Source of the DNA: Tilletiopsis washingtonensis
Taxonomy: Eukaryota; Basidiomycota; Exobasidiomycetes; Entylomatales
Direction: 5' to 3'
Assembly: GCF_003144115.1 (NCBI RefSeq)
Contig: NW_020312022.1
Span: forward strand, 288,116-352,115
DNA: 64,000 nt
Each line of letters opens with the position of its first letter. Positions within the stretch are counted from its first letter, which is position 1. The notes below the pieces were generated by a model. The model made no database searches and was not told where the DNA came from. It saw only the letters and a list, made by a program, of their open reading frames with translations. Both the position numbers and the translations under genes were made by a program. Below, piece after piece: positions 13,147 through 56,157 of the stretch.

Positions 13147-13379
13147 GTGTGGTGGCGGTGGTGGTGGTGAGGAGGATCGAAGCGTCGCCGCGTGCGAGTG
13201 TGGCGTGGTCGTGGTGGTGGTGGTGAGGAGAGAAGCGCCGCCTGCTCGCTTGCCGTGCGGCTGCGCGCGTTGCGCTGCGCCTCCTCGCTGTTCCCACGCC
13301 GCGCCACGCCCGCTTGGTGCTGCGCCTCTCCACTGCTGCGCTTCACTGTCGTGCTTTCCTCCGCTCCACCACCACACCC

Positions 13380-15044
13380 ATGTCGCTGCCCTACGCCCTC
13401 GACGCCTCGACGCCCCTCGCGCCCCAGGAGCTCGCCGTGCTGCGCGGCCAGTACGAGCGCGAGCTCGGCGCCGGCCACGCCAGCACGCAGACCAAGTTCA
13501 ACTACGCATGGGGCCTCGTCAAGAGCCGCGAGCGCGCAGACGTCGCACAGGCCGTCGGCGTGCTGGCGGGTGAGTGCAAGCGGGGCATGGGCGGCGCACG
13601 GAGAGACGGGGCGGCAGAAGGAGAGAAGGGCGGCGCGAGGGGAGAAGGGCGGCAGAAGGAGAGAAGGGCGGCACAAGGAGAGAAGGAGCAGCGAGCGGCA
13701 CAAGGAGAGAAGGGCGGCGCAAGGAGAGAAGGAGCAGCGGAGCGGAGGCATGTGCGTCGCCGCGAGGCATGTGCGTCGCCGCGAGGAGACAGTGCGCGCG
13801 CGCGAGGAGATCACAGATGCGCAGCACAGGGGCAAGAGAGGCGCCGAAGCGGAGGCGCACGTCCGGCGAGGCGGCGCAGCGTGTGGGTCGCCGTGGGGAG
13901 GCAGCGCACTCGAGAGAGAGGAGATCTCAGAGGCGCAGCACAGCGACAAGCGGCGCGCACGCGAGACGCACGCCCGTGCTCGCGGCGGCGACACGCAGCG
14001 GGCACGCCAGACGCACGCCCTTGCTCGCGGCGACCAGCGCGAGGCAGAGAGCTGGCAGAGAGAGGCAGAGATTGGGCAGGGAGAGGCAGAGAGCGGGCAG
14101 AGAGAGGCAGAGAGCGGGCAGAGAGCGGGCAGAGAGCGGGCAGAGAGAGGGCAGAGAGAGGTAGAGAGCGGGCAGAGCGAGGCGCCGAGGCCAAGCCATC
14201 TCCCGCATCTCACCTCGCTGACGCACCCTGTCACCAGACATCTACCGCACCGACGCGCCGCGCCGTCGCGAGTGTCTCTACTACCTTGCGCTGGGCCACT
14301 TTAAGCTGGGCAACTTTGACGAGGCGCGGCGATTCAACGGTGCGTGTGGTCTCCCCTTGCCGAGGACGCCGCACGCAGGGCCACGAGGGACGATGGCAAG
14401 GAGGCGCAACAGAGGGCGCAGCGTCTGCACAAAGACAGTGGCTGCGCTCACGCTTTGGAAGGTCGAGATGGGCGCAGCCGCAAGGCGTCTCGGTGAGGGG
14501 AGCTGGCTGCTCCCTGAGCACAGAGCGTGCCGTCGGTGCCCGCGAGCCGGCTCGGGCGCGCGGTAGCCGCGAGCGAGAGAGCGACCGCGCGCGCTCGCAG
14601 CTCTTGCGCCCAGAGCGGGGGCCCTCGAGAGCCGGGCCGAAGTCTCGTCGACGCTGCTCGATGGGCCCGCGGGTGCAGGTCTGGAGCATGGACGCACGGG
14701 CCTGCCGCAGTTCTCGGCGCAGTGCCGCAGAGAGGGAGAGAGCGAGGTGGCACGACGCAGAATGGTCGCCCGCTGACGACCCTTTCCCCGCCCTTGTGGC
14801 GCAAATAGCACTGCTGCTCGAGCGCGAGCCGAACAACCTGCAGGCGCAGTCCTTGGCGCAGCTCATCGAGAAGGGCGTGCAGCGCGGTGCGTTCTCCTCT
14901 TCCCCCTTCTTCCTCTCTCTGAGCGTCGAGCTGACACTGCGTGGGGTGCCGGCAGAGGGCTACATCGGCATGGCGCTCGTCGGCACGGCCGCGGCGGCCA
15001 GTGCCGTGGTGGCCGCGTGGCTGTTCAGCCCGAAGCGGCGGTAG
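13380..15044 (+). CDS. FIS1: Mitochondrial fission protein Fis1
   Basis: Fis1 is a tail-anchored protein of the mitochondrial outer membrane (and peroxisomes) that recruits the dynamin fission machinery. Exons 13380-13569, 14238-14339, 14809-14886 and 14956-15044 join in frame. Exon 1 has [20 protein letters not shown], the family's first TPR helices. Exon 2 has [21 protein letters not shown], the second TPR. Exon 3 has [19 protein letters not shown], and exon 4 is the anchor [22 protein letters not shown] with the basic end SPKRR. Total length of ~152 residues matches the family. The first intron is 668 nt, unusually long, and is packed with repeats; the second is 469 nt. Confidence 0.95.
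13602..13740 (+). repeat. Purine-rich minisatellite in FIS1 intron 1 (first block)
   Basis: About seven imperfect copies of a unit close to GGAGAGAAGGGCGGCGCAA occur in tandem, almost entirely purines plus GCGGC. Confidence 0.85.
14041..14180 (+). repeat. Purine-rich minisatellite in FIS1 intron 1 (second block)
   Basis: Tandem copies of GAGAGAGGCAGAGAGCGGGCA and of shorter GAGAGCGGGCA units fill the 3' part of the same intron, ~60 nt upstream of the acceptor. Confidence 0.85.
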
Positions 15045-18727: not shown

Positions 18728-21700
18728 CTAGGCATCGGCCTCCGAGAGCGGACTGGAGGGATCGTCGTGCGGCGAGACGGGCCCGTCGCGGCTCGCCGGC
18801 TTGCCGCCCAGCACGAGCTTGGGCGGCGGGCGCGAGGCTGACATGGCGCCCGGCGCGCCGCCAACGGCGTCGGCACCGCCGGAGAACATGGCGCGCATCG
18901 TCTGCTGGTCGCGGCGCGAGCGCACGCGCTCCGCCTCGAGGTGGCCGCCCGTCTTGCGCAGCGCCTTGCCCTCGACGAAGCCCGAGAGCTCGTCGGTGAA
19001 CTCGTCAGTGCGGCTGGCGATCTCCTTGGCGCGCAGCCGCTCGGCGGCATGCAGCGCCTTGAGACGCTTCTCGTGGTCGACCGACTGGCCGCGCACCTCG
19101 AGCATCACCGTCGTCAGGCCCTCGTGCCCCTCCTCGGGCGGCGGCGGCAGGAAGCCCTTGCCGTTGGCGCCCGACGGCCGCCCAACGCCGCGCAGCTTGA
19201 CGACCTGCTGAATGTTCTCGTACACGTCCTGCAGCGCGCCGTGGTCGTCGCGCAGGTCGGCAATGAGGCCCTCCTGGTGGTTGAGGAACTCCTGCTCGTC
19301 GACGATGTTCTGCAGCTCCGCCTCCCACGTCTTCTTCCAGCTCGGCTTGACGGTCTCGACGTACTTTTCCAGCTCCTCGAGGCCACGCGTCGCGCGCGCA
19401 ATGTCGTCGCCCACCTTGCGCATCAGCGCCGGCTTGGGCTTGACGCCGCGATTGATCACGTCGAGCTTGAGGTCGTCGACGGTGTCTTGCAGGTCCTCGA
19501 CGAGCGTGAGCACCTCCTGCGAATTGCCGTCGAGGCGCGCCTTGCCGGCGATGATGAAGTTGCGCTCCGCCGGCACCTCGGCCGACGCAATGGCTCGCAC
19601 GCGCGCCGACTGCTCGCGCAGCTTGGCCAGCAGGCCGCCAACGTCGGCGCCGAACTCCGTCTGGATCTGCCGCAGCACGGCGAGCTCGCGCCGCAGCGCC
19701 TGGACCTCATCGTACTGGTGCTTCAGCTCGCCAGCAATGCGTGCACCGCTCGTGGCGCCCGAGCTGTGCGACGCCGTGCTCATCGTCGGCGAATCGACGC
19801 CCTCGTTGGCCTCCTCGCGCAGCGTGCCGGCGCGCTTCAGCTGCTGCGCCACGCGTGCGCCAGCAGACGTGAACTGCGAGTCGGTGATGCGGCTCGACGG
19901 GCCTGCCTCGGCGGCCGCATTGACAGCGGCGAGCGCATCGCTCGCGTAGTTGACGCTCGCGCGACGGTTCGCCTCGCGATCGCGGTCGCGGTCGTGCACG
20001 GCCGTCTTCAGATCGCGCAACTCCCGCGTGATCGTGCCGAGCACGAGATCAAGGTGCTGCTTGACCTGGTCGAGCGCTGCGAAAGGAGATCTGTCAGCGC
20101 GCCGCACGGCTCTTGCTCTTCGCGGCTGCACCCACGCTCGATGTTCAGCGTCAGCACAGCGCCTTCCTGCAGCTCGTTGAGGTCTTCGAGCTCGTAGCTG
20201 ACGCCGCTCGGCACGTCCTTGACGTAGATCGTGGGGAAGTCCTCCTTGCGCGGCGAGTAGCCGAAGCGATCCATGAAGAGCATGCGCAGCTTGCCCACGC
20301 TCAGGCCGCGCCCGGCAGCACCGGGCAGCAGCTCGAGCTGTGCGCGCCGCGTCTGCCGCCCAAGCTGCAGGAATAGCGACAGCATGTTGGACGCCGGCGC
20401 TGACGCACGAGCCTGCGCGGCATCCAGCTTCTTCCGCTCGGCTGCCGTCGGCAGTGGCGGCACAGGCGGCACTGCGTCCATCTGATCGTACGGACTCGGT
20501 GGTGATGGGTCTGCCGCGTCAACGTACGGCAGGCTCTCCGTGGAGCTGGCGTTTGCATTGGACGTGTCGACTGGCGGCGGAGCCAGGCTCGTCGAGCCCT
20601 GCACGCGCGGCGAGAGATGCGGACTGAGGCGCGACTTGCCATTGAGCGGCCCTGGCGTGAGCTCCTCGCTTCCGCTGGGCACCAGTCCTTCGGCATCGGC
20701 ACCATCGGCGCCTCTCGGCCGCCGCGCCTCATCGCCTGACGATGCTGCGTCCGAGGGTGGGCCACCGGAGATGCCGCGCACCAGGCGCTTGCCTGCGCGC
20801 TGCGCCTCGCTGGTAGTACGGCGCTCTGCCAGCGGCGAGCTAGAGGGGCTGTGCAGCGACATGGCCGCGCCGCCCAGGCTCGACAGGCCCATGCCGAGGC
20901 CGAAGCCCTGCGGAGTGCCGACGCCCATTTTGTTGAACGTGTAGGCGCTGAAGCGCTTCGACGCTCGCCGCTCCAGCGCGTCGCGAGACTTGAGCGCGCG
21001 CAGCGATGGATCTGACTCTGCCTCGGCTGCTGCATGGGCGGCCGCCATCGCCCGGCGTCCGCGCGCCGAGCCGGGAGTGCGGGACGTGGAGGAGAGCGGT
21101 GGAGACGTGGCAGTGACGGGCGTCTGCACAGCCGACGTGCTGGCCAGCTGCGTGAGCGAAGTCGTCGGCGTGACTGTCTGCCCAGTGGCAGAGTCCGGCA
21201 CTGGCCCGTCGACGAGCGAGTGCCGCACGATGTCGTTTGGCGCTCTCTTCTCCGCCGGCGCGGGAGGCGTGCCCTCTTCCTCCTCCCGGACGGACTCGTA
21301 CACCGTGCTGCCGTCTGTGGATGCTTGCGGCGTCATGCCTGCATCGCGCGCGCTGCTGCTGCCGCCAGTGCCACGCCGCCGCGGCTCGTCGTGCTCTGAC
21401 AGCCCTGCACCGATCGTCGGCGACGCGACCATCGAGCCAGGCCGCGACAAGGGCCGGTCGTGCACGGGCGGCGGCGCAACTGGCCGGCGGCTGATGCTGC
21501 CTGTCGTGCTCCGCCGATGCCCCGAGACCTCCTCGCTCGTGTTGCTCCGCTCGCTGCGCGATCCGCGCGAGCGGTGCCCCGAGCCGCCGCCGCCGCCCGT
21601 CCGCTGCGCCAGCAGGTACTGCTTGTACTCGGCCTGCTTGAGCTTGAGGCCCTGCAGCAGGTTGATGATGATCTCGCGGATCGGCGGCAGATGTACCTCG

Positions 21701-22506
21701 AGCACCTGCGGCGAGGCGTCCTCGGAGAGGCACCGCTCGAGGCAGGCGCGCAAGTCGTCGGGCACAGATGCCAGGTCGCTGAGCGGACGCGTCAGCGCTG
21801 TGCCAGCAGCAGCAGCCAGCGCCTGCAGCTCATCGCGCGCACATCCGCTGCACTCACCTCATGTCGATGCCGTAGCTGCCGAACGCATGATTCGCCGTGT
21901 TGAAGTCGTTGCCCAGCCGCACGTAGATGTCTGAGACCTGCGTCTCGGTGCGCTGGCCCGTGCTCCACTTCGTCAGCGCCTCGAGCAGCATCTTGGTCGC
22001 GACGAGCAGGCGCGTGACGGACGACTCCATGTGCGACGATGAGTACTGCGCGCGCGCCTCAGCATGGTTGAGCTCGCCAGCCAGACGCTGCCACTCACGC
22101 GAGGTCCACTGGCGCCGTCGCTGCCCTGGCTCTCGCGTCCTGCTCGATCGCCGCGCGAGCTGCCGGCAGCAGACTGGCCGCTGCCACCCTGGATCTGCTG
22201 GCGCACTGCACGCTCCCGTTCTCGCTCGCGCGCCCGCATCTCCTCGGGCAGCATCGGGCCCTCGTCGCCGTAGCCGTTGCCCTGCCTCGAGGCGGCACTG
22301 GCAGCCTGCGCCTCTCGCGCCGAGGCCACGAGGGCGGCGGCACGGCGGGCCGACGACGAAGAGGAGAGCTGTGCGCCGCCGGCACTGCCAGGTAGCGCCG
22401 GCAGCGGCGCACTCGGCACGGCGCTGAGCTGCGGGCTGTGCGGCGACGACGACTCGGACGTCGGACGGCGCTCGCGGCGCAGCACCGAGGAGATGCCGGG
22501 CAGCAT
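18728..22506 (-). CDS. BUD6: Bud6/Aip3 actin and formin cofactor
   Basis: Bud6 binds actin monomers and the formin Bni1 at sites of polarised growth. Four exons (22506-22099, 22045-21858, 21778-20136, 20076-18728) give ~1,195 residues. The N-terminal domain has ESSVTRLLVATKMLLEALT and SDIYVRLGNDFNTANHAFG, then SDLASVPDDLRACLERCL. A ~350-residue Ser/Pro/Ala-rich linker follows. The AIP3 core starts FLQLGRQTRRAQLELLPG, continues through FMDRFGYSPRKEDFPTIYVKD and YELEDLNELQEGAVLTLNIE, then LDQVKQHLDLVLGTITREL and a long coiled coil to WKKTWEAELQNIVDEQEFL, the conserved actin-binding/flank region. The start is the first Met in frame before the conserved domain (MLPGISSV); more upstream in-frame sequence lacks features. 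Order and motifs match the fungal family throughout. Confidence 0.95.
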
Positions 22507-23331: not shown

Positions 23332-26300
23332 TTACTTGTGCACAAGCGCAGCGCGAGGCCTAAAGCAAGATGTCAGCGTCGAGTCTTGCACTGGTTGTAA
23401 CGACTCACTTCTGCACAGAGGTAGCAATGCCGACGAAGTGCTCGGCCAGCGAGACCTCTGAGCAATAGGATGAGCACATGGCTGAGCGCTGAGAGGCCCG
23501 ACAACGCTCACCGGAGATGGCTTGCACGTGAGCGCTAGCCGGAGCGTGAAGAGCGGCGAGGTCTGCCATGCGCTGCAGGCTGCTCGAAAGTCCGTCGGGA
23601 CCGAAGGAGACGGAGAAGAGCGTGACGGGAATTCCCGACACGTTTGCTGAGCGACAGAGTCCGTGCACCACGCTGTCCGTCAGGCCACATTCTCCGTCGC
23701 TGAGGAAGAGCCTGAAAAGCGCGTCAGTACGTCTCGATGAAAGGTTTTCTGAGGCCAACACACAGAACAGGAGGTCTGAGGCGTGGGAGCATGCGCGTCA
23801 GTAGAAGGCCATGAGCCTGTCGGAAAGCCTCTTTGGACGCACCTCTCCATTGACCACTGCCGAAGCATGACCTGCTCAGCGGCGGCAATTGCAGAGTTGA
23901 AGTCCGTGCCGTGCCACGGTGCGGCCATGCATTTCCTGTCCGTGCTCGTCAGCGCGTCTCGAAGCGCATAACTCACGCTAGACTCACTTTGTCAGCTCTT
24001 CAGGAGAGCTTGTCTCGTCTCCTTCGAACAGGACAGCTGGCGCGCTCGAGAACACAATTGCTGAGAACGAGTCGCGCTGCGCCGCCTGCGCATTGATGGT
24101 ACCGCGAGCATCCCAGAAAGCTCTGCAGGCGGAGAGCACAGCTCCAAAGCGGTTTGGGTAGTATTGCTCGATGTACGCCGTCATGGGCGTGTCTGGCAGA
24201 GGGCGACGGTCGCCTGCTGACATCTGTTGGGCGAATCAGCGCCGGACGTAGACAGTGTGGCCTGGAGCAACGCACCGAGCTCGAACCGTCCAACGCAAGC
24301 TTGCAAGGGGTCAGCGGTCAGCAAGGCTGGCGCAGAGGCGCGTACCTCATATCTTCGAGCTCACAATGAAGTGGGAAGCCGGTCCCTGAGACGGATTGGT
24401 GCACGAGAACGAGTGTCCGTCCGCAGATACGTAGCCTCCCGAGTGCAGAAGCGCCTTCTGCGGCGCGTGGAAGAGGTCCAGATCGCAGTAGGACGGGCTT
24501 GCGTGTGCGTCGTCGGCGCATTGCGCGTCGCACTTCCGGAACTCGAGTTGCTGCTGCTTGTCGTAAGGGTCTTGGAAGCCTCGACGCCGCCAGTACAGCT
24601 CGTGCGTGATGTAATCGGTGCCCTGGCTGCCGTGCATCTTGAGCTTGAAAGGCGCATGCGAGCGGTCTGCGCTGCCTTTGCAATCAGTGGCGCTTGCAGA
24701 CTGGCAGGCGTCGAAGTGTGTGTGCCGGTTGAGGCTGGTGCAGACGAGATTGCACAGCTACGTGCGCGGCATCAGTCTTCTGCACGGCGTTCTGGCTGGG
24801 AGAGACGTACCATCGAGGCGCCCGACTCGCCGCGCAGGAACTTATGACCTGCGGCCTCGATGACCGCGTCGCCTGAAGCTGCCTCCCACACCTCCTCTTC
24901 CATATTGCCGTGCTGCGTGGAGTGCTCCTGAGCGTGACCGAGCGGCTGGTTGCAGTAGTAGGCGCAGCTTGGGCACTGCGCAGATGAAGCTCAGCGAAGC
25001 CGAAGGGCTGCGACAAGCTCAACGGACCTGCACATCACAGAAGTGGAAGACACTGGCGTCGAGCGAATGCACGTGCTGGCCTTGGTGGTACAGCTCCCCG
25101 GCTGGGACGCGCTGGGCGCAGGGCAGGCGCTTCTGGACCTGCGAGTACTGCGGAGGGCGGATCAGCGCAAGCACACTTATTGCTGAGGCCAGGCGTCGCA
25201 CCTTCGTGTAGGTGAAGCTGTTCAGCGCGCCGCGAAAATGGGCCTGGACGGAGGCGGGCTGCGTGGAGATCTCGCAGATGCCGGGGAGCTCGCACTGGAG
25301 CGGACAGGCGTGGTCGCTGTCGCAGAGGTGGACTGCCGATGCGTCGAGTGCGTGGAGGTGGTCTAGCGCAGCGCAGCCTGTCATTGCGTGAGCGCTGCAA
25401 TGCAGACCCCTGAGGCGAGAGCCACACTCACTGCGGACACAGAGGCTGCACTTGATCGTGCACCCGCGAGCTGAGTTGCAGCTGTGGACGGTGTGGGCGG
25501 CGTCCCTTCAGGCGAGGCGTAAGTACAGTGAATTTCATCCAGGCTACCGGCTGGCTCACACGGGCAAAGCGCACGGCTCGAGGCACGCCGCAGTCTGCGC
25601 GCCGGCGCCATCGCTTGTCTTGACGCTGGAAAGCGCGCATGGGCTCGAGCATAAGTGGACAGAGCCGCATGCGTGATCGACGTTGATGGCATGATCCGGG
25701 TCCAGGCTGCATGTCAGTGTGCAGCCTCGCTGACCCTGTGCTGCGGATGCGCACGGCGCCGCACACGTGTGCTTGCCCTCGCTGCAACGGTGGCGCAGAG
25801 TGTCCGGATGACCAGCAGGAAGAGAGCACGGGGGCTTGTCGTCTTCATGGCTTTCGAAGGCGCAGCTGGCGTCGCACGCATGGTCTGTGGCGCAGTCATG
25901 CTCGCCTGTGTGGCTGCGGAGACGGCGGCAGCGGAGGTGGCAGGACTTGCAGCTTGAGCCGCAGAGCGTGAGGTCGGTCTTGAGTGCAGCAACGGCCGAC
26001 TCGAAGAGGCGCTGCAGCATCACGGCATTCACCTCGTCGTGGTCGAGACGCTCGGTGTTGACCTTCAGCCACTGCTGTGTCACCTCCTGCCGCAGCTTAA
26101 GCAGCTCGAACAGGCTTGCCTGCGCCTCATCGAACGTCGACGTGGGCTTGCCGAGAGCCTGTGCCTGCGTAGTGAGGCTCGCGAGGTGGTCGGAGGTCTT
26201 GCACTCCAGCGAGAATTGAGAATGGTCCTCGTTGATGGGCTCATCAGTGTCGAGATTCATCAGCGGCTCGAGAACGGCCGGCTCGACGGTGCTTGGGACG

Positions 26301-29300
26301 CCTCCAAGAATCAATGCGCTCTCCAGGTGCTCGCTGAGCTGCGCGAGGCGGTTCTTGCGCACCGACGCACCGATGGGAGTCCAGTCAAAGCTCTGAATCT
26401 GCGCCATCAGCGTCTTGAGCGTGCGCAGAAAGGCGCCTCCGGGCGGGTGAGACACCTCGGCTGCGTTGAGGAGCTCTGCGAGACAGCCGAACTCAGAGTA
26501 GAACGCAGGGTCCTGCAGGCCAGGCCACGGCACGATTGCGAGCTTGCCTCCGAAGAGCCTGGAGACGAAGTTGCCGCCCTGCTCCGTGGCCACGATGCTC
26601 TGGAAGCGGCGGTAGAACTCGGCTGCTGCCTCGTCACGGTCCGACATCTGCGCAAAGAGTGTGAGCAGCGGCTCGGATGAGGTAATCGTTGACGGCGCAG
26701 CGAGCTCACCATCACATCCTTGATGACGACGGCAAGGCTTCCGCGGAACAGCTCCGGATTGGCCGTCGGGTTCAGGATGCCGGCAGAGGCTTGGAAAGCG
26801 CCGAAGAGAGTGCGAATCTCGCGCGACAGCGAGAAGGAGTTCCGATAGATCACGAGGTTGGAAATTGCGGCGTTCATTAGCACGAGCAAGGCGTCCTCTT
26901 GCACTGAGCGCTCGACAGACTGCACGCCTTCGAAGTCAAGCACGACGTAGACAGTTGCGCCGCTGCTTGGTACCACGCTCATCCAGACGCCCTCGGTTGT
27001 GCGCGTCGCTGCGCCTTCAAACAACGTATCGAGCAGGTGGTTGAGTGCGAAACTCTTGCCTGTTGACTGCTCTCCCAGACTCGAGACAACCTTGACGTCG
27101 GCGGTGCTGTAGAGGTTGCCAAGGATCGACTCGAGATGGCCAAGCGACAAGCGTGATGCGATGTGCTGCGCAGAAGCGCCAAGCAGCGACTGCTCGAACT
27201 CCGGGTCGTTGATGCCGTCGTAGAACGAGACGAAGCGATTGTCGCGCGTGATGCCGAGCTGCACCGGGATGAGGCACACTAGCGACGCAAGGAACTCGCC
27301 AGCCTTGAAGCGCGAGACATCGCCCAGCGATGACGTCAAGGGCACCAGCTCGTGCGGCTTTTGCACCGTCGCCTTGAAGTAGCTACAGAAGGATGTAAGA
27401 GACGGATCGGCGCGTGTGCACGCGCTTCACTCACCGCAGCAGCGTGTGCCAGACCTCCTGCACTGTAGACACCGCAGGTACGACAATGCTTGGTGCGCAG
27501 CGGCCGTCTGCGCTCACGATGTCTTGCTGAAGCTCGGCGCGGATCGGGAAGCGCGTCCACACGTCGAACCATGCACCGAGCAGCGGCGGGGCGGCTGCGC
27601 CGCCAAGCGCGGCGCTTTCGGGCTTGCGGTCGGGCACCATGTCAAACGAGCGCTGGTCGGAAGTGATCGACAGCTCGAGCGAAGCGATCGAGAGCGAGGC
27701 AACCTCGAGCGAGGCATTTCCGAACAACGCAACCGTGCGTGGATCGAGGAGGAGCATGACGTGGCATCGGTCGGGAGAGCGGATCGACGTCACTGCCTGA
27801 CCGACGCTCGGAGGCAGGTCAAAGTGGCGCATAGACTCGTCGGTGCCAAAGTCCGCCAGATGGATGGTGCGAAGCGACGAACCAGAGACCAAGAGCAGGC
27901 AAAGGCCGTCCGGAGAGGCCGCGAGAGTGCTGAGCGGTGTAGCCATGTCAAGTTGGACGGTGGCGGGCTTCATCTGCTGTGTGACGAGCGAGTAGAGGCG
28001 CAGACGGCCCGATGCCTCAGCAATGGCAAGCGTCTCAGCTCCGGGTACGAGCGCCGTGGCGCAAATCTCTGGCAGTCCGCTCGAGTACCACTCTGTCAGA
28101 GTGCGCAGTGCGGCGCGAGGCGTCACGCTCTGCCACTTGTCGTCGCAGATGAAGACAGAGAGGTGCAGCTCGTCCTTGACGCTTCCGAGCACTGTGAACT
28201 GGCGCGCGCGCTCGTCCAGCGCGAAGCTCGGGTTGCTGCCGATGCGAGAGCGATCCATCTTGAGCTTGGCCTGGCCGTTGCTTACTGCAGCCCCCAGAGC
28301 GTGGGGCCGCTCGATGAAAAGCTGAAATTTCGCCAGCGTGTCGTCTTCAACAATGACGAAGCACAGTTCGCCGACCATTCTGATGAAGCTGTGACGTCGC
28401 GAGGTCAGCTGTAGCCTTTGACAAATGAAAGCTGAGGTACTCACGCAAGGCGCTGCTTGCCGGCGAGCAGCTCAAAGTGCGGCACGGGTCCTTTGGCGAA
28501 GTGAGGCGGAGGGCAGCGGAGATGCGCGCAGTCGGGGTCCGTCAAGAAGTCTTGGCGATAGATCAGCGGCTGTAGCTCGTGGCGAGTCATGCTCGGCGTC
28601 GCGTGCTCCTGCGTGCAGTTCAGCTCGCTGCTTCTACCGTGGTCCGAGTAAGATGGGAACGAAGCGTAGTGCGTGTGCCTTGACGATGTTGACGCTTTGA
28701 AGCCGTGAATCACAAGAGTGGAGCTGCGCAGAGTCGGCATCGTCAGTGCAAAAGCGAACCACAGCAAGAGACTTTAACTCACGCAAGCCCCGCAGGCGCG
28801 AGGGCCTCCTCCACCTTCAGGCGGAAGTCCTCCTCGATTGATGCAGCGTTGCTCTGCTTCTCGACGCCCGCCAGCTTCCTAATGCGCGCCTTCTCTTCCT
28901 CGCGCAATGTCTGCGTCAGCGCGTTGCTGATGGCGCTCAGCTTCTCGCGATTGAGGCGCGCGGAGGCCTGTTGCAGGGCAGAGAGGAAGACAAGACCTTT
29001 GCGACGCAGACTAGAATCCGCCGAGGCGCTGCGGATCAGCTTTAGCACCTGATGGCTGTCGACGTCTCTCGCGACCGTAGCCCATTTCTTGTCATCTGTT
29101 GCGGAAGCCGATTCGCCGGCCAAGAGCTCCTGGGCCTTGCCAAAAGCGCTGCTCAACAGCGACACCGGGGCGCGGTGCTGCTCGACGAAGCCGATGAGCT
29201 TGCTGTTCCAGGCCGCCTCGTCGACGCTCGTGCATTCGTACAGCTCGTACAGCGCCGCTTCGTCGTCGGAGCCACTCGCGAGGAGCAGCTTCTTTGCTGC

Positions 29301-31730
29301 TTGCCACAGCATGTAGAGACGCGTCTTGTGGCGCTGCGGTGTACAGGTACAGTCAGCGTCTGTGAGCGCTGTGTATGCTCGTACTACTGACCTTTAGCTC
29401 TGGCGTGGCCAGCGGTAAAGGCGAACGCTTGTACTGGAAGCCGAGAAGCCAAGAGAAATCGACCTTCTTGATGATGCCAGCCAGGCGTGCCCGTTGCGTT
29501 TTGTCCGACTCGGTCTCGGTCTCGACGCCATGATCAGCTCGGAGAGGTTGACGGTTCTCGAGATGCTCAGCCTCTGCGACTCGTGCCTTGTCGCTTGATG
29601 TTGAGACCTCGATCGCTGTCACGATCTCGCATGACACCGAGCTCTCGCTTGGTGCCGACGGAGCGCTGTCGTGGGGCACTGCGGCCGCGCTGGTCTCCTT
29701 CTCGATGCTGTTGGCGGCGTTCGTCTCCTTCTCGATGCTATTGGCGGCGTGCGGCTCCTGACCTCGACTCCCCTCGGCGCCTGACTCCTCGACATAGGAC
29801 TCGCTGTCGCGGCGCTCTTGGTCGGCATCGTTCTTCTTGGGAGCATTGTTCTCCTCGACGCGAGGCTCCTGTGCTTGGGCGTCGTGGGTGATAGCCGCCT
29901 GGTCGTGAGCCTGCTCGAGGCGTGCCTTCTCCACACGGGCCTGTTCGTCGCACTCGAGCTGCAGAACTTGAGCACGCAATTCGGCAGAGTCGAGGTCGAG
30001 GCGGCTCGCGATAAAGTTGCACGCTTCCTGTTGCGCCACATCGCGAATGATGGCCTCCGAGTAGTCCGAACCCGCCGATTCGAGCTTGCACTTCAAAGGC
30101 GCGTCGTAGGCCGCGGATGCCTGGCGTAGAGCTTCGTCCATCTGATGCAGCACGGCATCCGCGCTGTGGTTCTGAGACAGCCCGGCTGCGAAGAGATCGC
30201 GAATCTCGCGCATGGAGACTGTGCTGTCGATGAGAACGGCCTGCGACGAATCTCTAGCTCACAGTGTCAGTGTGTAGCCGCACTAGCAATCCGTAAGACT
30301 CACCCGAGCATCTTCTTGAGCATCATGGGAGTGTGCTTGACGCACGTGCGCTTCGGGACGACTTGCTCCGGCAGCGTCACGGTGGTCAGCACCGCCTGTG
30401 CTGCATGGCCAGGCACGATGTCGACGATGTCGACGTCATGGTCGACGGGAACGGCCGTGAGCGGGAAGCCATCGCTGATCTTGACGTCGGCCTCGCTCTC
30501 TTGTACTGCATCGACGGAGAAGGTAAAGAGGCGCCTCGTCGTGAATGCTGTAGCCTTGACGTCGAGGTTGTACATCTTCTTCGCGAACTCCTGGATGCCG
30601 GCGAGGTCCGCGTCGTCCATGAGACAGAGCTGCTGGTCCGTGAGCTTAGACAGGGAGCGCATCAGCGTCGTGCGCGTCTTGACCGCCGCGCCTGCCGGGG
30701 CCTCGCCGGCGCTCCACATCTCGGGCGTCGGCCAGAGTACGAGGTAGTTGCAGTCGTTGGCCGCGTCTGCGGCAGTGAAGAGGTAGATGCCGGGCTCGAG
30801 AGGGCGCAGCGGCACCGCCAGGTCATGCTTGGCGAGAAAGTCGATGAGCACTTCGCGCTTGCCGTAGAGCCCGACTACGCTGAGCGACGCGTTGTTGAGC
30901 GCACGGTAGTCGACCTTGGTGAGGCTCTTGTGCGAGCCGGGCGAGAGGAAGTTGGCGCACGCTGCGAAGCCCTCGCTGTGCACGACGATCTTGTCGACGA
31001 GGCCGCCGCTTGCCTGATCCTGCATGAGCTGCAGCAGGCAGAAGGAACCTGCAGTGAAGGAATGAGTATCTGCCGAGCTTTGCCGAGCCCTGAGACTCAC
31101 GAGGTCCGCTGGTCGGGCTCGGCTGAGGCGTTGCGGCGCGCATCGGCTCGTCCTCGACGAGATTGGGGCCGCGCTGAGAGTCAATGTCGACTCCGGTCGA
31201 GCCGGAAGCCTGCGCCGGTGCGGCACCGTCGTCGAGCATGAGTGCTCCCGGCGGAGGCTCGAGTGCTGCCGGGGTGGATGTCGCGGCCGAGGTCACAGAG
31301 ACGCCGTCGTCACTTGCAGTGTTCGCCATGGCTGCCTCGCCGAGGTCCGCCGTCAGCAGCACCTCATCCATGCGCTCCGGCTCGTGCAGCGCCGTCGAAG
31401 AGTCGATGCGCTGCGCTTAGGCGTGGCGGCACGCGAGAGCGACATCGCGCTGGCCTCTTCCGAAGCGCTGTCAAGCGCGTCGACGGCCGACAGAGTCGCA
31501 TCTGCGCAAGATGTGTGTCAGTCCCAGGGCCCTGGTGTTCGCAAAGCCAGCTCACCTTCATTGATGTACACGTGCGAGCCTTGCTCCGACGCTACCATGT
31601 ACAGAGCGTCGGCGGCGGCGCCGCTTGGCGAGTTGCTCCCGCTGTCGGGCGCGCTGTGCGTCGTGCTGGCGACGGTGCCGTCGTCGCCGCACAGGCTGAA
31701 ATCGCTCTCCGAGCGAGCGGAGAGCGACAT
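23332..31730 (-). CDS. Giant GBP/VLIG-like GTPase with zinc-binding array and VWA domain
   Basis: About twenty exons encode ~2,400 residues. From the N-terminus: ~180 disordered residues; a ~250-residue unknown domain (exon 31050-30303); a coiled, acidic region with a duplicated AANSIEKET; a helical exon; and a propeller-like exon (28420-27437). The G domain (27380-26713) has P-loop GEQSTGKS, TTEGVWMS (switch Thr), DFEG (G3) and VIKDV in the place of the GBP/VLIG TLRD motif. A helical stretch precedes repeated Cys/His clusters from 25960 to 24365 (CGSSCKSCHLRC, CSLCVRSC, FHFCDV, CPSCAYYC). The C-terminal VWA domain has a complete MIDAS: DGSSS, GTDFNSAI and LSDGEC. The apparent stop at 23405 overlaps a donor; splicing to 23371 gives the ending KPRAALVHK. 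Similar architecture occurs in uncharacterised basidiomycete proteins; function is unknown. The N-terminal exon joins (31555-31370) are unsure. Confidence 0.85.
24276..24299 (-). other. 24-nt microexon encoding the VWA metal-site motif
   Basis: This tiny exon lies between a GCAAG acceptor and a GTGCGT donor. It encodes LALDGSSS, the first MIDAS motif (DxSxS), flanked by exons ending SHFI and starting MSAGDRRPL. Both joins are phase 0. Confidence 0.75.
29696..29755 (-). repeat. In-frame 30-bp tandem duplication in the giant gene
   Basis: Two nearly identical 30-bp units encode AANSIEKETN and AANSIEKETS in the acidic coiled region, so the duplication keeps frame. Confidence 0.85.
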
Positions 31731-34700: not shown

Positions 34701-34930
34701 GTCTCTGTCTCGCCCTCACTTGCGTCTCGGCTTCCCTCGTTCCGGCCCAGCTGCGCGCGTCTCGTCTCTTCTGCCGTCACCTTCGTTTCGTTGCCTCGCC
34801 GAGTGCCCTCCTTCCACACGCGTGAGCATCTGCTTGCTGCCAGCGCCGGCCGCGTGTCTGACCGCTCTGCGCAGGCATCAGCGCCCACAGCATGCTCACC
34901 TCGTGCCACGCCTGAACGATCACGCGCACC
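31731..34930. other. 3.2-kb gene-poor divergent promoter region
   Basis: This lies between the divergent giant GTPase and RA-PH genes. Open frames on both strands are short or Arg/Ala-rich and show no family features. A CT-rich tract at about 34,640-34,800, before the RA-PH start codon, looks like a fungal core promoter or 5' leader. I see no tRNA or other RNA gene. Confidence 0.6.
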
Positions 34931-37900
34931 ATGCCCTCGGCGACGCACCGCGCGTCGCCGCAGCACTCGCCCGCCCACTCGCCGCTGCTCGCCTTCCGCC
35001 CGCTCGCCGCAAAGGCTGCGTCGCCGCCGACCGTGCCGCTGGCGCTCGATGCCCTCACCTCGGCGTTTGGCTTTCCCGAGCCGCCGGCACGCCCGTCGCG
35101 CCTGAGCGGCGCCGAGGAGCGCCGCAGCTCGCCGCCGCCGCGCCGCCGCCGGCTGCCGCGCCATGCCGCCCAGGCGCCGGCAGCACCGCGCACACGGCGC
35201 AAGGAGGAGTGGGCCAGTGGGCTGCCCAGCGAGGCGCATCCACACGAGGCGGGCACGCGGGACCTGGAGGAAGACGAGGACGAGTACGAGCAGCAGACGC
35301 CCGCCGGCTCGCACTCGCGTCTGCCGTCTGGCGCAGACGAGCGGGCGCCCAGGCGCGACAGCGCCGGCTCCTTTGGCGAGGCCGGCGACAGCTCCTTCAC
35401 CCGTCGGCCCTCTAGGGCATCACAGAGCGAAGACGCGCTCGGGCTCGACGTGAGCCAGGAGAGTGGCATGGTGCGCTCTGCCTCTGCCTTCTCGACGGGC
35501 TTCGTCTCCTCGCCGGGCTCCTCCATCGGCGAGCCCGAGGAGATGGTCGAGGAAGACTTCACCGATGGCAGTGCCGGCGGCATGAGCTTCTCCAGCGACG
35601 GCGAGTACCATCTGCCGACGACGCCGGCGTCGGCGCACGGCAATGCGTCAGGCTTTCCCGGCACGCTGCCACAATGGCGCCCGCGCGAGCTGCAGCTCGT
35701 GCGCAGCGGCTCGGAGGAGGCAGCGCGCGTGCCCGCGGCACACCGCTTCCCGCTGAGCATCTCGCCGTCTCCAAGCTACTCGGCCAGCGCACCGCAGCAC
35801 GCCGCGCGGCGCTCGCCTGCCAAACGTCCGCCGCACATGCGCGCCACGAGCACGACAAGCAGCGGCAGCGGCAGCAGCTCTGCCGCAGCCGCAAGCAGCG
35901 CCACGGGCCCGCGCGACCTGCTGCTGGCGTCCGCTGCCGTGCCCGCCGGAGCCATTCGCAGCCTCACATCGCCGTCGTTGAGCGTGACTGTGCCGCTGAA
36001 GAGCGCCACGCGCTCCGTGTCGCCCGTCAGCGGCGGCTCTGCGTCTTCTGTGCCGCGCAGCCCGCTGCCTGTGCTGTCGACCGGCCCTGCCTTCCCGCCA
36101 GGCCCGGATGCCACGCTCGAGAGCATGGCCGCCGAACGGCTGCCAAACGAGTCGCTCGCGACGCCCGCGCGCCGCGCGGGCGGCAGCGGACGCATCTCGC
36201 CCATGCTCACGCCTGGCAGCGCGTCGGGCGCGAGCCTCAGCGTCAGTCCCGTCGTCTCGGCGCCTTCGTGGGAGATGCCGACGCGCGCGTATTCGCCCCT
36301 GGGCACGGCCTCTGCGAACTCCTCGCCATTGCGTCCGCTCGTGCCTCTTCCGAGCAGTTCGAGCGCCGCAACTTCGCCGTCTAGCTCGCCGCAGGACGAG
36401 CGCGTGCCTCTCCCGCCGACGCGCGCGCGTGCACATTCCTTCGTGCGCTCCTCTGCATCCACGTCGCGTAGGAAGCCGCCGGCGCCGCTCGATCTGGCGG
36501 GCCTCAGCGCGAACCCCGGCGCTGAGCCTCGCAGCGGCGTCGTGATCAACGAGCCGACGCCTGATGCATACGCGCCCGGCGCGTCGCCTTCTTTCGACGA
36601 TGCTGCGTTCCACGCGCTGGAGGGCGAGAAGCTGCTGCTGGATCCCCAGACTGCGGTGTGGCCCGCTGGCGCCTCGACTCCACAAGCACAGGCCTCGCCG
36701 CGCATGCCGGGCAACCTGTCCGTGCCCGAGCCCGAGGCCGAGATGCCCATGACGGCCGCCACAGCTTTCTTCGACTTCGACAGCGCTGACACGTACGTGG
36801 CCGACATGTCCGTCGACGAGGGCACGCGCAGCAGTCGCAGTGCCGATGCAGACGAGCCAGCCCCGCACAGCGCCGGCTCTGTGCGCCTGGACCTGCCGCG
36901 CCTATCGCTGGCCTCGTCACATGCTTCGTCGGGCGGCCGCACTGTAGAGGCACCCTTCGAGTTCGACTACACGTCCGAGGCGGCCGCCGGCGCTGAGGCA
37001 AGCTCGCGCAGTGGGTCGCGCAGCGGCTCGCACACGTCCGACGTGCTTGCTCCGATGCCCGCATCGCCACGCGCCCAGCCGGTCGCCAGCGCATTTGAGT
37101 CGCCCGAGTCGAGCTACTCCACGGACTCGCCGCGGCAGTCGCAAGTGACGCCCAGCAGCTCGCGGATCTCATTCCGCACGTCGATGTTCCAGGTCTCGGT
37201 CGACTCGCCGCGGGGCGAGTCATTTGGGCCGCGAGGCACGCCCGATCTCGGTGCGGCTCCGTTCCCAGACGAAGGCGTGCAGTCCGGCGACCGTCCCAGC
37301 ACTGCCTCGTCGGCCTCACCGCGTCAGAGCATCGAGCCCGTCGGCCTGCAGCCAGCGCATGCTCTCCGACCTGGGTCACTCGGCCAGCACGCGCGCCGCC
37401 CTCAGGCAATGCACGAGGAGCAGACTCCTGGCAGCAGCTCTTCCTCTCCAGCCAGGAGCGTGGTGGCGCCGCCGCCACGGCCGACTGGGCATGCATCGCA
37501 GTCTGAGCCGCTGCCGACCGGCGAGTGGCGACCCACGCCGCTCAGCGTGCCGACGCGGGCGTCCATTTCATCGGGCAACACGTCGCCCGTCGGCGGCGTA
37601 TCGGCTGCACCGGCCGCAGGGCCCCCGTCCTCGCGCCCGAACCTCTCCATCCGCACGATGGACACACAGAACCGTCCGCTGCCGCCGCTTCCGCGATCGA
37701 AGCCGTCGATTGTGCCCGATACGCCGTCCTTTGGCTTCATGCCCTTCTCTCCAGCGCCACCCACCGCCGACGCTGCATACATGTCGCCTCCGGCTGTCGG
37801 CAGCTCGCACACGCCACAGAGTGGCACGTTCAGCGTTGACTCGGCCTACTCGGACCAGTACGCGCCCTTTGAGCAGGTCATGTCGAGCCGCTGGAGCTCG

Positions 37901-40900
37901 GGCTCCGAGTCGGACGACGAGCCGAGCGGCGGCAAGAGCAGCCGCAAGAACTCCAAGGCCAAGAAGACGGCCTCGGCCAACAGCAGCAAGCGTCCGTCTG
38001 CGAGCGGCAGCATGGGCCCGCCCGCCGCGCCGCTGCGCAAGGGCTCAGCCTTCTTGCAGGGCCTGGGCCTGCGCAAGAAGAGCTTCTCCAACGCTGCCGC
38101 GCCCTCGCCGTCGCAGCGCTCGGCCTCGCCGCACACGCCCGGCATCGCCTCGCCTGCCATGCTCGACACTGCCGCCGAGTTCCCGTTCCCTCCGGCTAGC
38201 CAGTTCACGCCCGGCTCGCCATCGGTCGCGACGCGCCTGAGCCGCTCACCTCATGTCACAGACAGCGCGCCACGCAGTCGTGCCGGCTCCGTCGCGTCTC
38301 GCTACTCGCAGAGTACCGGCAACAGCGGGCCGTCGATGAGTCATCGCCCTTCGCTGGCCAGTCTGCGCATGTCGAGCATGGACCAGAGCCGCCGGCCGTC
38401 GCTCACCGGCGATGGCGCGGAGAGCGTGCCGGCCTCGCCCAGTCTGCCGAGTGGCTTCGCGTTCCCCACTCGCAGTCGCAATGTCTCCGCCGCGGGCAGT
38501 CTCGACGCAGAGCTGGCAGGCCTGGGCATCGCGCTGCCGGCCGGAGCGCCCTACGCCGATCGCAATCGTCCGACGCACGCCAGCCGTCTGTCCAACAGCC
38601 TGCGCTCCGCACGAGCGTCGCTGAACAACCTGCGCGCGTCCAAGGACCTCGCGGCCGTCGAGGCCTCGGCCAATGCTCTCGCCGCTGCGCTGGCGAAGCG
38701 CAACAGCCAGGGCGGGCGGCAACGCTCAGCCACGATCAGCGCTGCGGATCTCGCACAGAGCCGCGCCTCCATCGCGGCTGCGACGCAAGGCGTGCTGCTG
38801 CCCGACGTCACGACTTCGCCGCCGCGCGGCGAGGCCCGACGCCGCAGCAAGAGCCAGTTCGACGAGTTCGACACGACGCCGCGCGTGGCGTACGCCTCGC
38901 TGCCCGGCTCGGGCCGCAGCAGCATTGCCAGTCCCACGCAGGCACGTTCGAATCTTTCGCGCTACGTGCACGACGATGAGGCACTCACGCGCCTTGGCTC
39001 GCATCTCGTGAGCACGGCGTCATGGGCCGACTTCTCGCCCGAGTCGGTGCCCAGCACGCCGCCCGTGCCCGCGCGCGGATCTTCCACTCGCGCGTTCAGC
39101 GGTCGCCGCTCCGACGCGGGTCTGGAGCGCCAGCCGTCGCCGCTCGTGGAGAGCGTCTCGGCAACTGCGGAGAAGCAGCCAGCACCGCGGAGGCGCCGCA
39201 TTATCTACTGCGAGGGCGCGCAGATTCGTCCGCACTACCCGTCGCTCAGCGACTTCGGTCGTGCGTGGTGCCAGGAGCACCCTGGATCCGCGCTCGAGGC
39301 GGCGCGAGGACCGGCGCTCATGGCTGCTGCCCTCGCGGCGCGCGGCTACGCAGGCGCCGGGGAGGGAGGCAATTCCGGCGCCAGCACACCCTCGGACGCG
39401 TCGACTGACTACTACGGGTCAAGCGACGGCGGCGGTGGCGCTGATGGCGATGCCTCTGACCCCGGCGAGCCGTCGGGCTCCGGCGGGGCAGGCGACGAGG
39501 ATGATCCGGAGGACCGCAAGGGCAACGGCGCCTGGCCGAGCCGAGCCGCACGCGACGCGCTGCTGGCATCTGACGAGGAAGAAATATCTTCAGATGACGA
39601 CGAGGACATCTATGGCGTTGACCGTGCCAAGGGCAGCTCGTCGGCCCTCTATGCGACGGCCAACGCCAGCTCGATGCCGCCGACCAGCGATGCCATCGAT
39701 CCCTCTGGCTCGTCCAGCCGTAGCGCCGAGTCGGATGACGTGCCGCTGGGCGAGCGCGTGCAAAATGCCGAGGCCCTGCAGTCTCGTCTGCGCGCGGCTG
39801 AGCGTCGGGAGCAGATCGCTTCTACTGCCCGTGCGCTCGAGCGCGGTGGCCGACATTCCAAGAGCGACCGCCTGCGGAAGCCTCGCGGCTTTGCGCCGGA
39901 GAAGGCACCCGACTCGTCGCCGCTCGACATCAATGATCTCATGGGCCGTCTGCAGAAGGTGCAAGTCCAGCAAGCTGCTGGCCTGCCGACGCGCGGACCG
40001 CAGCAAGTTGCGCCGAGTGGCGGCGATGTGCTCTCGTCTGCGAACCCGGCCCGCGTGCCACAGGGGCGAGCGCGCTCGAACACGACGACGGGGCGCGACC
40101 AACGTCTCGCCTCGGCGCCGGTGCCGACAGCGCCTGTGCTCCCGGCGGCAGTGCAGCAGCAGCAGATCCTGCTCCACCAGCAGCAGCAGATTGCGCAGCA
40201 GCAGGCGCAGATTGCGCAGCAGGCACAGCTTCTGCAGTCGATGAAGCAGCAGACGTCCGAGTCGGCGCCCAACTCGCGCACCGTCAGCCGGCAGCACACG
40301 CTTGCTGCGGCCTCGCGCGCGGCAGCTGGTGTGCGCCCTCGGCCTTCGTTCAACGAGCAGGTCCCTCAGCGTCTGCCTCCAAACGCGATCCCGGCCGATG
40401 CTCGCAGTGCGGCGGCCCACAAGGCGCCCACGGCTGCGCTCATGTTCCCGTCGTCGAGCTCTTCGGGCGCGTCCAGCCCTGCGATGGCCGGCACGCCGCA
40501 GCTTGGCATCTCCAGCACCATGGCCGGAGTGGTCAGCCAGGCGCAGATGACGCACCGCGCCGCCGAGCATCTGCGTGGCGGCGGTAGCCACTCGGCCTCG
40601 CCGGCACTGGGCACTGTCCCTCTGCGCATGTTCTCTGGCTCTGCGGAGCCGTCCGCGGACGGACACGCGGCGCCCGAGGAGCAGCCGCAGGTGCGCCTGC
40701 GCTCCCGCAGCATTTCGAGAGCTCGACCCAATGTCGTTGTCGATGCGCGCGTGGCGCCGCCGCTGCCGGTGCCTGTGCCGCGCCAGCAGCCAAACTCCGG
40801 CACCTCGTCGGCGTCGCACTTCTCGCCCGCCTCGGGCGGTGCGCCGGGCACGCAGACGCTCGCTGCTGCGACAGGCGAGGCCTCTCCGCGCTCGCCACTG

Positions 40901-42210
40901 GCGGGCCTGCCGGTCGTCGCAGCGCCGACCGGACCGCCGATCCAGCTCATGCAGCACCGCGTGTACATTGCCACGAAGCAGCGCTACGGCACGGCGCAGG
41001 TGCCGCTCGACGCGCGGGCGCGCGACCTCGTGATGGACATCACCGAGAAGGAGTACGTGCCCGTCGACGTGTCGCAGGGCGGCGGCGGCGGCTGGGTCAT
41101 CTTCGACTGCTGTCCGCAGTGGGGCATCGGTGAGTGTCACGTGTGTGTGTGCCGAAGGTGCGATGCTCATCCTAGCGGACCTTCAGAGCGCCCGCTGCGC
41201 GAGTACGAGATGATCACGGACGTCATCGACGCGCGCCCGACGCCCGACGACTACTTCCTGCTGAAGCGCACCGAGCTCGCGCCGTACCTGAGCTTCCGCG
41301 CGATCCCGACGAGCTCGCCGCTGCTGGCCGGCTACGTATACGTGCAGGACCACAAGCGCAAGTGGAGCAAGCGCTGGCTCGAGCTGCGCGACCACTCGCT
41401 GTACCATGCCAAGTCGGACAAGGTGAGCCGCAGCAATGCGAACGTGCCAGGCGTAGCTGACGCTTTGCGCAGGGCAAGGACGAGGTCTTCGTGTGCAACC
41501 TGTCGGCCTTCGACATCTACCTCGTCGACACGGCCAAGATCCGCACGCCCAAGCCGCACGCCTTTGCCGTGCGCAGCCAGGACAAGATCACGCAGTTCGA
41601 GAAGCCCGAGAACGACTACGTGCACTACTTCTGCCTCGGCGACCCGGCGGCGCACCGCGACTGGGTGCGCGCCATCATGAATGCGTGAGTGGCCGGCCCT
41701 CCTAGGCGCCCGCTGCCGGCTGCAGCGCTGACCGCTTCCGCTCGCAGGCACACCTATGTGCTCAAGCAGGAACGAGCCGCGCTTTTCGTCCCGCCCGTGC
41801 GGCCCATGGTGCCTCCGCCTGTGCCCGCCGAGCCAGAGGCCGGCACCAACGGCGCCTCTATTGCCACAGCCGGAGGCCTGTCACGGCGAGGCACACAACG
41901 CCGGCCGGGCCGCGCGCCCGACGCCAGCAGCAGCAGCGACATGAGTGCTGCCGTCGCCGCCGCCGCCACGCCCTCTGCGCCCGGCGGCGGCCTCATCGGA
42001 CGCGACGCCTTTGCCGGGCCGTTTGAGAAGGGCAGCCTGCTCGCCAACGCCGCGCTCAACGCGGCGCCCGAGGGCCTCGACCTGAGCCTGCACGAGCGCA
42101 CCCGCTCGCGCCAGGCCGAGGCCGCCCGGCGCGCCGAGCTGGCGGAGCGCATGCGCCGAGCGCGCGCCGCCGGGCAGCCGCTCGTCGATGTGGCGGCGCG
42201 GCCGTTCTGA
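34931..42210 (+). CDS. Large RA-PH scaffold protein
   Basis: Four exons (34931-41129, 41187-41422, 41473-41684, 41748-42210) give ~2,370 residues. The first ~1,980 are low-complexity, rich in Ser, Pro and Ala, with many SP/TP sites, a poly-acidic patch (DEEEISSDDDEDIYG) and a Gln-rich coiled segment near 40,150. The folded part begins with QHRVYIATKQRYGTAQVPLD, a Ras-association-like segment, then WVIFDCCPQWGIERPLREYE. A PH domain follows: LAGYVYVQDHKRKWSKRWLE, then VCNLSAFDIYLVD, and HYFCLGDPAAHRDWVRAIM with the invariant Trp of the last helix. The RA-PH tandem is the arrangement of the Grb7/RIAM/lamellipodin group, which links Ras-type GTPases and lipids to actin; in fungi the proteins are little studied. 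A basic helical tail ends the protein. The first exon, 6.2 kb without an intron, is exceptional here. Confidence 0.85.
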
Positions 42211-45200: not shown

Positions 45201-46743
45201 GCTGCGGCCGCCGCACCCGCGTCCGTGCAGCAACCCTGCGGCCGGCGCCGGAGCCGCCGCCGCACGGCCAGGCGGCAGGCGTCGTCGAGATCGAGAGGCG
45301 AGCAGCGAGGGCAAACCGGCGGCCCAGCGAAGAGGCCGAGCAGCCGGCGCGCCGCCCGCGCCCACGCCAGCAGCACCAGCAGCAGCAGCACCAGACAGCC
45401 CGCCCGACGGCGCGTTCCTGGATCCAGCGCAGGTTTGCGCGAGCCGGGGCAGCGCAGCGCAGGAGGCGGGCGAGCGCAGGCGCCGTCGATCAAGAGCGAA
45501 GGGGCGCAGAGAAGGAGCAGCAGCAGAGGCAGCCGCTCAGCCTGCAGCGAACCCTCGAGGCGCCCTCGCCCGCCGACCCCGCGCCGAGCAGCTGGCGTCG
45601 CCCTCGTCCTGCCGCCTGCTCGTCCGTCGGGTCTCACCACCAGCACCGCCTCCTGTCGCATTCATCCGGACGCGCCGCGGCGCCCCCTCATAAGCGCTGT
45701 GCGCCGCCGTGTCCACCTCCCGCTCCGCTCTCGCCCCCGCTGCTCTGTCCCGTCCCGCTTGCCCGTCCATCCGTCTGCCCGTCACTGCCTCTGCCTCTTC
45801 TTCGCCTACTCTCTCTCTGCATCCATCCTCTCATCCTCTCCGGACCCATCGCACATCACACTCTGCGCCACGACGCACAAGGTGGCCCGCGCACACGCCG
45901 CACTCTGCCACCGCCTCGTGTGCCCGCTCGATCGAGCTGCGCCTCGGGCCGGCCAGCCTCCTCGTCGCGCCCGCCTCTTCCGCCTCTGCAGGCAGCCGAC
46001 AGTGAGTGCAGTGCCCACTCGGATCCGCCGTTGCCGCTGCCGCTGCCGAACTGCCCGAGCTCGATCCGACCGACTGTGCACGAAACGCCAGGAGAAGGGC
46101 CGTAGCGCCGCACTGCCGCACGTGGATGTCAGACCCGCACGGATGTCGAGAGGGCAGCACGCATCCACGATGGCGTGTCGCCGCCGCCCGACGTCCCTTG
46201 GAAGCTGGCTCGGCCGTGCCCTCGCGAACGCGTCGGGTGACGCGGCCTGCTCGCGTGCTCTCTGCAGAAGCGGGCCGTGTTCCTGATGGAAGGCTCGTGT
46301 TCGCTGCGGAGGCTCTTCAGCGGGCGCGCGAGATGTTGCGTGAGCCCGATTGGGGGCAGAGTGCAGCCTAATCGCAGGCGCCCGCACGCTCGGATGTGCG
46401 GAGCCGAGCATAGTGGTTCGCACGCGCGAGATCCGCGGCGCCAGCGTCTAGGGGCTTGCCTCGCGCAGCCACACGAACACTTCCGCACGACGCAGCGATG
46501 CCACGACGCTCGCGGCGCGCCGCAGAGCTCGGGCAGGCTGGCCAATCAGTCGCGGAAGGCCGAGCTGCTTTGTGCCTCGATCTGGCCAGGCACATTCTTA
46601 TTTGTCGGAAGCCCTCTCGTGAGGCGAAGAGAAGCGTTCTTGGCTGCCGAGCAGCCGGCCGCGTGACGCCCGCTCAAGCATGGCCTCGTCATCTCGCCTC
46701 TCGGTGTCTCTCAAAAGCTCACACTTCCTATGCCCCTCGCAGC
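42211..46743. other. 4.5-kb gene-poor region upstream of the GATA factor
   Basis: Open frames here are Arg/Ala/Ser-rich on both strands, including one of 567 codons (44583-46286), and show no domain or conserved feature. A strong pyrimidine-rich tract at about 45,690-45,860 resembles a fungal transcription start region, implying a long 5' leader of up to ~900 nt for the GATA gene. No RNA gene is recognisable. Confidence 0.6.
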
Positions 46744-55297: not shown

Positions 55298-56157
55298 GGC
55301 GGGCGAGGGCGGGGCAGAGGGTGTGGCTGTTGCTCGGCAAGGCGCGCGCACCGCTCGGCACGCACCGAAAGCGCGCGCCGCACCGGCATGCTCTGCCGAG
55401 ACCAACACCTTCGCACAGAACCGACAGTGCCGCTCTGACGCAGCCACATGGCACTCGGCAGTCTGGCGCTGATTCCTCAGGCATGCCGGACGGTGTCGCA
55501 GCCTTGCGGCATGCTGCAAGAGTCCGCTTGTCCGTCACTCTGCGAGAAGATGGCACCGGCACCGGCTGTGCGACTGCCGTGCTGCCGGAGCGCTGTCCGT
55601 GCGCGCCCAGGTGGAGCTGTGAGCTTGATGAGATCCTAGGAGGCCGTCCGCACAAGCGTGCCTGCAGCGATCGCTGCCGGGATCAGCGACCAGAGGCTGA
55701 TACTGAGCGATGCTGTGCGAAATCTGGTCCTCGTCTCATCCTCATGTGCGGCAGCAAGCAGGGCAGGCGCCGAGCCGAGCCAGGCCAGCGGCGCGTGCAG
55801 CCCGGGCGCCGCAGGTCCGCTGGCGCCGATGCGGGCTGCGAGAAGCTGCCGTCTGTCGATGTCGTTCCGGCGACGGCCGAGTATCTGGATCATCTCGCTG
55901 TGTCGAGAGCAGCAGACTGCGAGCTGCGATGCAGAAGCAGCAGCAGCAGTACAGGGCCGCTGCGGCGGCTGGCGGGCGCGGGCTGCGAAGGTGATATCGC
56001 CGATGCCGCCGCCACGCCGCGCGGCGGCGCGGATGGTGTGGCCCGACGCCGCTGCACGCGCGCGCCGCCGCACTGCGCCTCGCATTCCCACCTCCACCAC
56101 CGCTGCCCGTCGCCGCACTCTGCCCGCTGCATCGCACACCCCTCGCCGCCGACCGCG
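55298..56157. other. Divergent promoter region of GST and TPS1
   Basis: About 860 bp lie between the start codons of two genes often induced by stress. No gene is visible; a long open frame across it is the upstream extension of TPS1 and lacks family features. Confidence 0.6.

Follow-up and report, generated by a model that had tools for sequence, protein, structure and literature searches.

The window analysed here, a 64,000-nucleotide stretch of the Tilletiopsis washingtonensis genome, is the terminal stretch of contig 25 (bases 288116-352115 of 352115). Its minus strand carries one intact gene, in which a single multi-domain reading frame joins a predicted GTPase (G) domain, a long Cys/His-rich array and a VWA domain. 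A preliminary description of the locus had placed one gene joining these three parts at the coordinates listed in Table 1; the boundaries proved exact, and the union of the three parts was upheld by a coherent 20-exon model.

Table 1. Features of the GTPase-Cys/His-VWA gene (positions within the window)
Feature	Position	Strand	Remarks
Whole gene	23332..31730	-	20 exons, 2,413-aa protein, spliced model
Exons 1-2	31101..31730	-	Acidic, Ser-rich N-terminus of low complexity, up to about residue 163
Exon 3	30304..31048	-	About 250 residues, without Pfam match
Exon 4	29392..30253	-	Holds Glu/Ala/Ser-rich linker, residues 521-665 (composition)
Exons 5-6	28445..29333	-	Residues about 700-976, no Pfam family matched
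Exon 7	27435..28388	-	Residues about 977-1293, tentative beta-propeller-like region
Exon 8, G domain	26710..27382	-	PF02263, PF05879 and PF25683 matches; human GBP1 match
P-loop GEQSTGKS	27075..27052	-	Residues 1397-1404
DFEG	26937..26926	-	Residue 1443
IKDV	26724..26713	-	Residue 1514
Exon 9	25560..26647	-	Predicted remaining part of G domain and helical stretch; array of Cys/His begins here
Exons 10-13	24365..25481	-	Remainder of Cys/His (probably zinc-binding) array
Exons 14-20, VWA domain	23332..24299	-	PF13519, PF00092; complete metal-site residues
12-nt microexon ACCTCCTGTTCT	23764..23775	-	Preserves frame

The spliced model begins with an ATG at 31730, ends with a stop codon at 23332 and contains no internal stops. 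Eighteen of the 19 introns measure 49-78 nt, and the first measures 140 nt. All 19 have GT...AG ends, which were chosen as such when the model was built, while a CTNAY branch-like site, which was not a selection criterion, lies 15-26 nt from the 3' end in 16 of them. For every exon of at least 90 nt (16 of 16), the frame used in the model ranked first of six by a codon score trained on five open reading frames (ORFs), of which four have a Pfam match; the shorter exons (49, 28, 24 and 12 nt) were outside this scoring. Scores near zero were obtained for exon 10 (-0.031, the weakest, still first of six) and exon 16 (0.004). With its length and its acceptor TAAG, intron 1 is unusual and the way in which exons 1 and 2 are joined is doubtful, as an indel or a further short exon may lie there instead; this doubt touches the low-complexity N-terminus alone. 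In the VWA region, the microexon sits within a gap of 131 nt, flanked by one intron of 67 nt and one of 52 nt, gives the protein sequence ERPPVLLFLSDGE and lifts the VWA_2 score of the VWA piece from 30.4 to 37.6 bits. Since it was picked by eye, because the strand ahead of the metal-site Asp was absent, this gain supports the microexon but is not blind evidence for it.

The motifs GEQSTGKS, TTEGVW (with the switch Thr), DFEG and VIKDV follow one another in the G domain, that is, the G1-G4 motifs of the dynamin superfamily are all present in the correct order. The first, third and fourth of them had been named in the preliminary description and were recovered at the residues given in Table 1. 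The GBP profile (PF02263) scored 31.3 bits on exon 8 and 27.1 bits on the whole protein, both above its cut-off of 21.1. On exon 8, the RHD3/Sey1 profile (PF05879) reached 33.0 bits, under its cut-off of 42.4, and the URGCP profile (PF25683) 26.4 bits, under its cut-off of 55. The best solved relative was human GBP1 (E = 0.00074), followed by Sey1 (E = 0.0041). Judged by these matches, the domain falls within the dynamin superfamily, in its GBP/RHD3/URGCP group, and is assignable to no single family of that group. The earlier label of a GBP/VLIG-type G domain thus stands for the group and not for GBP or VLIG specifically, since RHD3 scores slightly higher, URGCP scores lower and a Ser replaces the Arg of the human GBP1 P-loop. 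Exon 9 probably supplies the remainder of the domain. Elsewhere in the genome (an assembly of 18.7 Mb in 32 contigs), a separate Sey1-like gene lies on the minus strand of contig 15 at about 179531-181394, with the motifs GSQSTGKS, TTKG plus GIW (spread over two exons), DVEG and VIRD. A second PF02263 match, on contig 10, scored 14.7 bits and was below the cut-off.

The Cys/His array is a repeated, ordered pattern. Among the 42 Cys and 36 His (78 together) of residues 1740-2200, H-x-C-x3-C occurs five times (shuffle mean 0.28), C-x(3-4)-H-x-C-x3-C four times (0.05) and C-x3-C 13 times (3.72); none of 5,000 shuffles reached any of these counts. The order does not extend to C-x2-C (three occurrences, 3.68 expected by chance) or to close C/H pairs in general, of which there were 48, against 52.0 in shuffles of the same composition, with 1,528 of 2,000 shuffles reaching 48. 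From this pattern the array probably binds zinc. The proposed RING/NFX1-like label could not be retained: no Pfam family was listed for the array at E ≤ 10, a search whose filters remove most weak matches. No PDB sequence matched the array at E ≤ 10.

With the microexon included, the VWA domain scored 37.6 bits against PF13519 (VWA_2), above the cut-off of 27, and 21.3 bits against PF00092, just short of the cut-off of 23.8. In the whole 2,409-aa model, which is without the microexon, PF13519 scored 25.3 bits and fell under its cut-off. The metal site of the DGSSS...T...D form is complete (residues 2204-2208, T2297 and D2327), in agreement with the intact metal ion-dependent adhesion site (MIDAS) described before; D2204, S2206, S2208, T2297 and D2327 are the residues that we take to contact the metal. 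No close solved structure was found in the PDB with the VWA part. In a genome scan with VWA_2, the four matches listed lay on contigs 1, 22 and 27, and the VWA domain of this gene, whose exons are short and split, was not among them.

The bulk of the protein falls in no described Pfam family. Exon 4 gave no Pfam match up to about residue 526 and none in the whole-protein scan, and by its composition the linker of residues 521-665 is probably disordered. PDB matches of exons 3-4 were treated as chance (best E = 0.06). Exon 7, also without a Pfam match, tentatively resembles a beta-propeller, though weakly: four of the six phmmer matches listed were propeller proteins, namely WDR1 (E = 0.001), two SWD3 sequences (E = 0.25) and RSE1 (E = 0.49). 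An NCBIfam scan of four pieces of the protein returned two weak matches alone, both unrelated.

The codon bias of the gene is within the range of its surroundings. In the 2,409-aa model, the G+C content at third codon positions (GC3) was 0.777 and the effective number of codons (ENC) 39.1. The five neighbouring ORFs with Pfam matches, which run from stop to stop and hence contain some non-coding bases, had GC3 values of 0.806, 0.809, 0.744, 0.771 and 0.721 and ENC values of 37.2, 36.6, 40.5, 38.3 and 44.4, respectively; all nine compared ORFs spanned 0.705-0.81 and 36.5-46.9. The gene, which had been thought less codon-biased than its neighbours, therefore lies inside their ranges (0.72-0.81 and 36.6-44.4). 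The lower G+C content of the region is due mainly to the second codon position, i.e. to protein composition, with a GC2 of 0.472 in the gene and 0.52-0.73 in the five Pfam-matched ORFs. An unbroken ORF of 2,254 codons at 34916-41680 (+), with GC3 0.81 and ENC 36.5, had no Pfam match at E ≤ 0.001.

The window contains 134 ORFs of at least 200 aa, and a scan of 20 neighbouring ones revealed no recognisable defence gene. A Bud6/AIP3 polarity gene at 18728-21858 (-) occupies two frames that overlap and that an intron presumably connects; this gene and the closely spaced short introns point to a fungus, probably a basidiomycete. At 13227-15044 (+), two Fis1 TPR pieces lie about 418 codons apart in one open frame, the second of them under the cut-off; the gap is either a long insertion or in-frame introns. 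A GATA zinc-finger protein is encoded at 46414-48651 (+), and at 55186-57414 (+) there is a gene of glycosyltransferase family 20 (GT20), the trehalose-6-phosphate synthase family.

Protein searches of the T. washingtonensis genome with the G-domain exon and the Cys/His-VWA part recovered this gene alone, i.e. a single copy among the best candidates scored. Among the papers listed from open-access PMC for fungal GBP and VWA proteins, judged by titles and the beginnings of abstracts, none dealt with such an architecture. As a lead, similar Cys/His-plus-VWA C-termini may occur in uncharacterised giant 'VWFA domain-containing' proteins of mushrooms; if so, the protein would belong to a widespread unstudied family and would not be a singleton.

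Taken together, the protein appears to be a large dynamin-superfamily GTPase of the GBP/RHD3 group that is soluble and may act as a GTP-switched, self-assembling, partner-binding scaffold, a reading to which we give a probability of about 0.5. It is favoured because one coherent gene model carries ordered G motifs, which parallel those of the Sey1-like gene, and both GBP and VWA_2 matches above their cut-offs, and because the metal site is complete, the Cys/His motifs are ordered, a membrane span is unconvincing and one copy was found. GTP switching, self-assembly and partner gripping are predicted from the domain families. The G domain would bind GTP and, in the manner of GBPs and Sey1/atlastins, pair with a second copy. 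A rigid protein-binding arm would be made up of the propeller-like and Cys/His parts, and the VWA domain would grip a partner via a metal ion. GTP-driven self-assembly could then gather or remodel this partner on the surface of a protein or membrane.

Several observations weigh against this reading. The Pfam matches extend over no more than the beginning of the G domain (positions 17-113 of 264 in the GBP profile), and single-sequence AlphaFold2 models of exon 8 and of a second piece had a mean predicted local distance difference test score (pLDDT) of 34.1 and 34.5, respectively, too low to be informative for or against a dynamin-type fold of the G domain. Scans of IMG/VR (viral) and GTDB (prokaryotic) with exons 8 and 13 and with the VWA part yielded no relative; since these collections hold viruses and prokaryotes, this says little about fungi. 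Three loosened DNA patterns gave no match in viral contigs. Furthermore, a hydrophobic window of 19 residues at residue 1321 has a hydropathy of 1.61, where 1.6 is the customary mark for a membrane span, and membrane contact is possible; other separate windows reach at most 1.45, and those after the G domain at most 1.31. From this profile, the protein is tentatively read as soluble.

Animal GBPs and their VLIG relatives are GTPases of the immune system, and the G domain described here falls in the GBP group. A cell-autonomous defence GTPase, which would assemble on viruses, on bacteria inside the cell or on foreign nuclei much as animal GBPs assemble on pathogens, is nevertheless unlikely. 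RHD3/Sey1, a housekeeping group, fits the G domain about equally well, none of four pieces matched the PADLOC library (which is prokaryotic) at E ≤ 1, and the one copy found does not form an expanded family. Fungal GBP-like proteins do have a precedent, an expressed sequence tag of the fungus Blastocladiella emersonii listed as similar to interferon-induced guanylate-binding protein (PMC1550239). We consider it rather improbable that the protein is a fungal machine of cell-autonomous immunity that follows the GBP principle, that is, a giant GTPase polymerising on invaders, with the zinc arm and the VWA metal site recognising and gripping them. Few cell-autonomous immune proteins are recognised in fungi, and if such a machine were real, GBP-type immunity would extend into fungi in a new architecture.

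Midasin-type remodelling couples nucleotide cycling with a VWA metal site, and by analogy the protein could be a housekeeping machine for assembly or quality control. The one copy found, the complete metal site and the ordinary character of those neighbours that can be named (Bud6/AIP3, Fis1, the GATA factor and GT20) are consistent with this role. It is doubtful all the same, as the whole-protein scan listed no AAA domain, no remodelling partner is known and the likeness is one of analogy. The combination of a GBP-group switch with a VWA grip in a giant GTPase would either open fungal immunity to direct test or introduce a new housekeeping assembly machine.

A membrane-shaping GTPase with a function close to Sey1/atlastin would explain why the RHD3 model tops the G-domain scores (33.0 bits) and why the motifs parallel those of the Sey1-like gene; the hydrophobic window at residue 1321 also speaks for it. 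That score is, however, below the RHD3 cut-off, the window precedes the P-loop while nothing comparable follows the G domain, and a Sey1-like gene already exists in the genome, which makes this role very unlikely. That two adjacent genes were mis-joined is highly improbable in spite of the uncertain intron 1, as the biggest non-coding gap is 140 nt and the other 18 are 49-78 nt, below the usual intergenic size, and exon 8 has no Met ahead of the P-loop, so the GTPase cannot begin within this exon.

The scaffold proposed here shares features with four known systems and departs from each. Like that of GBPs, its G domain scores above the Pfam cut-off and has D-x-EG as well as a W-M following the switch Thr. 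Unlike GBPs, the protein has a P-loop Ser (GEQSTGKS) aligned with R48, the P-loop arginine of human GBP1 (GLYRTGKS), and with 2,413 aa it carries Cys/His and VWA parts where GBPs have their helical tail; for the whole 2,409-aa model, the GBP C-terminal helical domain was not among the Pfam matches listed at E ≤ 1. Some GBPs end in CaaX, whereas this protein ends in LVHK. With RHD3/Sey1 it shares the highest bit score among the three G-domain models, as well as a P-loop and a KD/RD motif parallel to those of the Sey1-like gene in the same genome. It differs in scoring below the family cut-off beside a separate Sey1-like gene, and the C-terminal membrane hairpin of that family was not seen by hydropathy, the only measure applied. 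With URGCP/VLIG it shares a related P-loop region, well under the cut-off of that family; VLIG proteins are also giants, and these GTPases are not known to have a Cys/His or VWA part. With VWA proteins it shares a PF13519 match above the cut-off and a complete metal site, whereas its PF00092 score is just under the cut-off and its VWA domain is joined to a GTPase.

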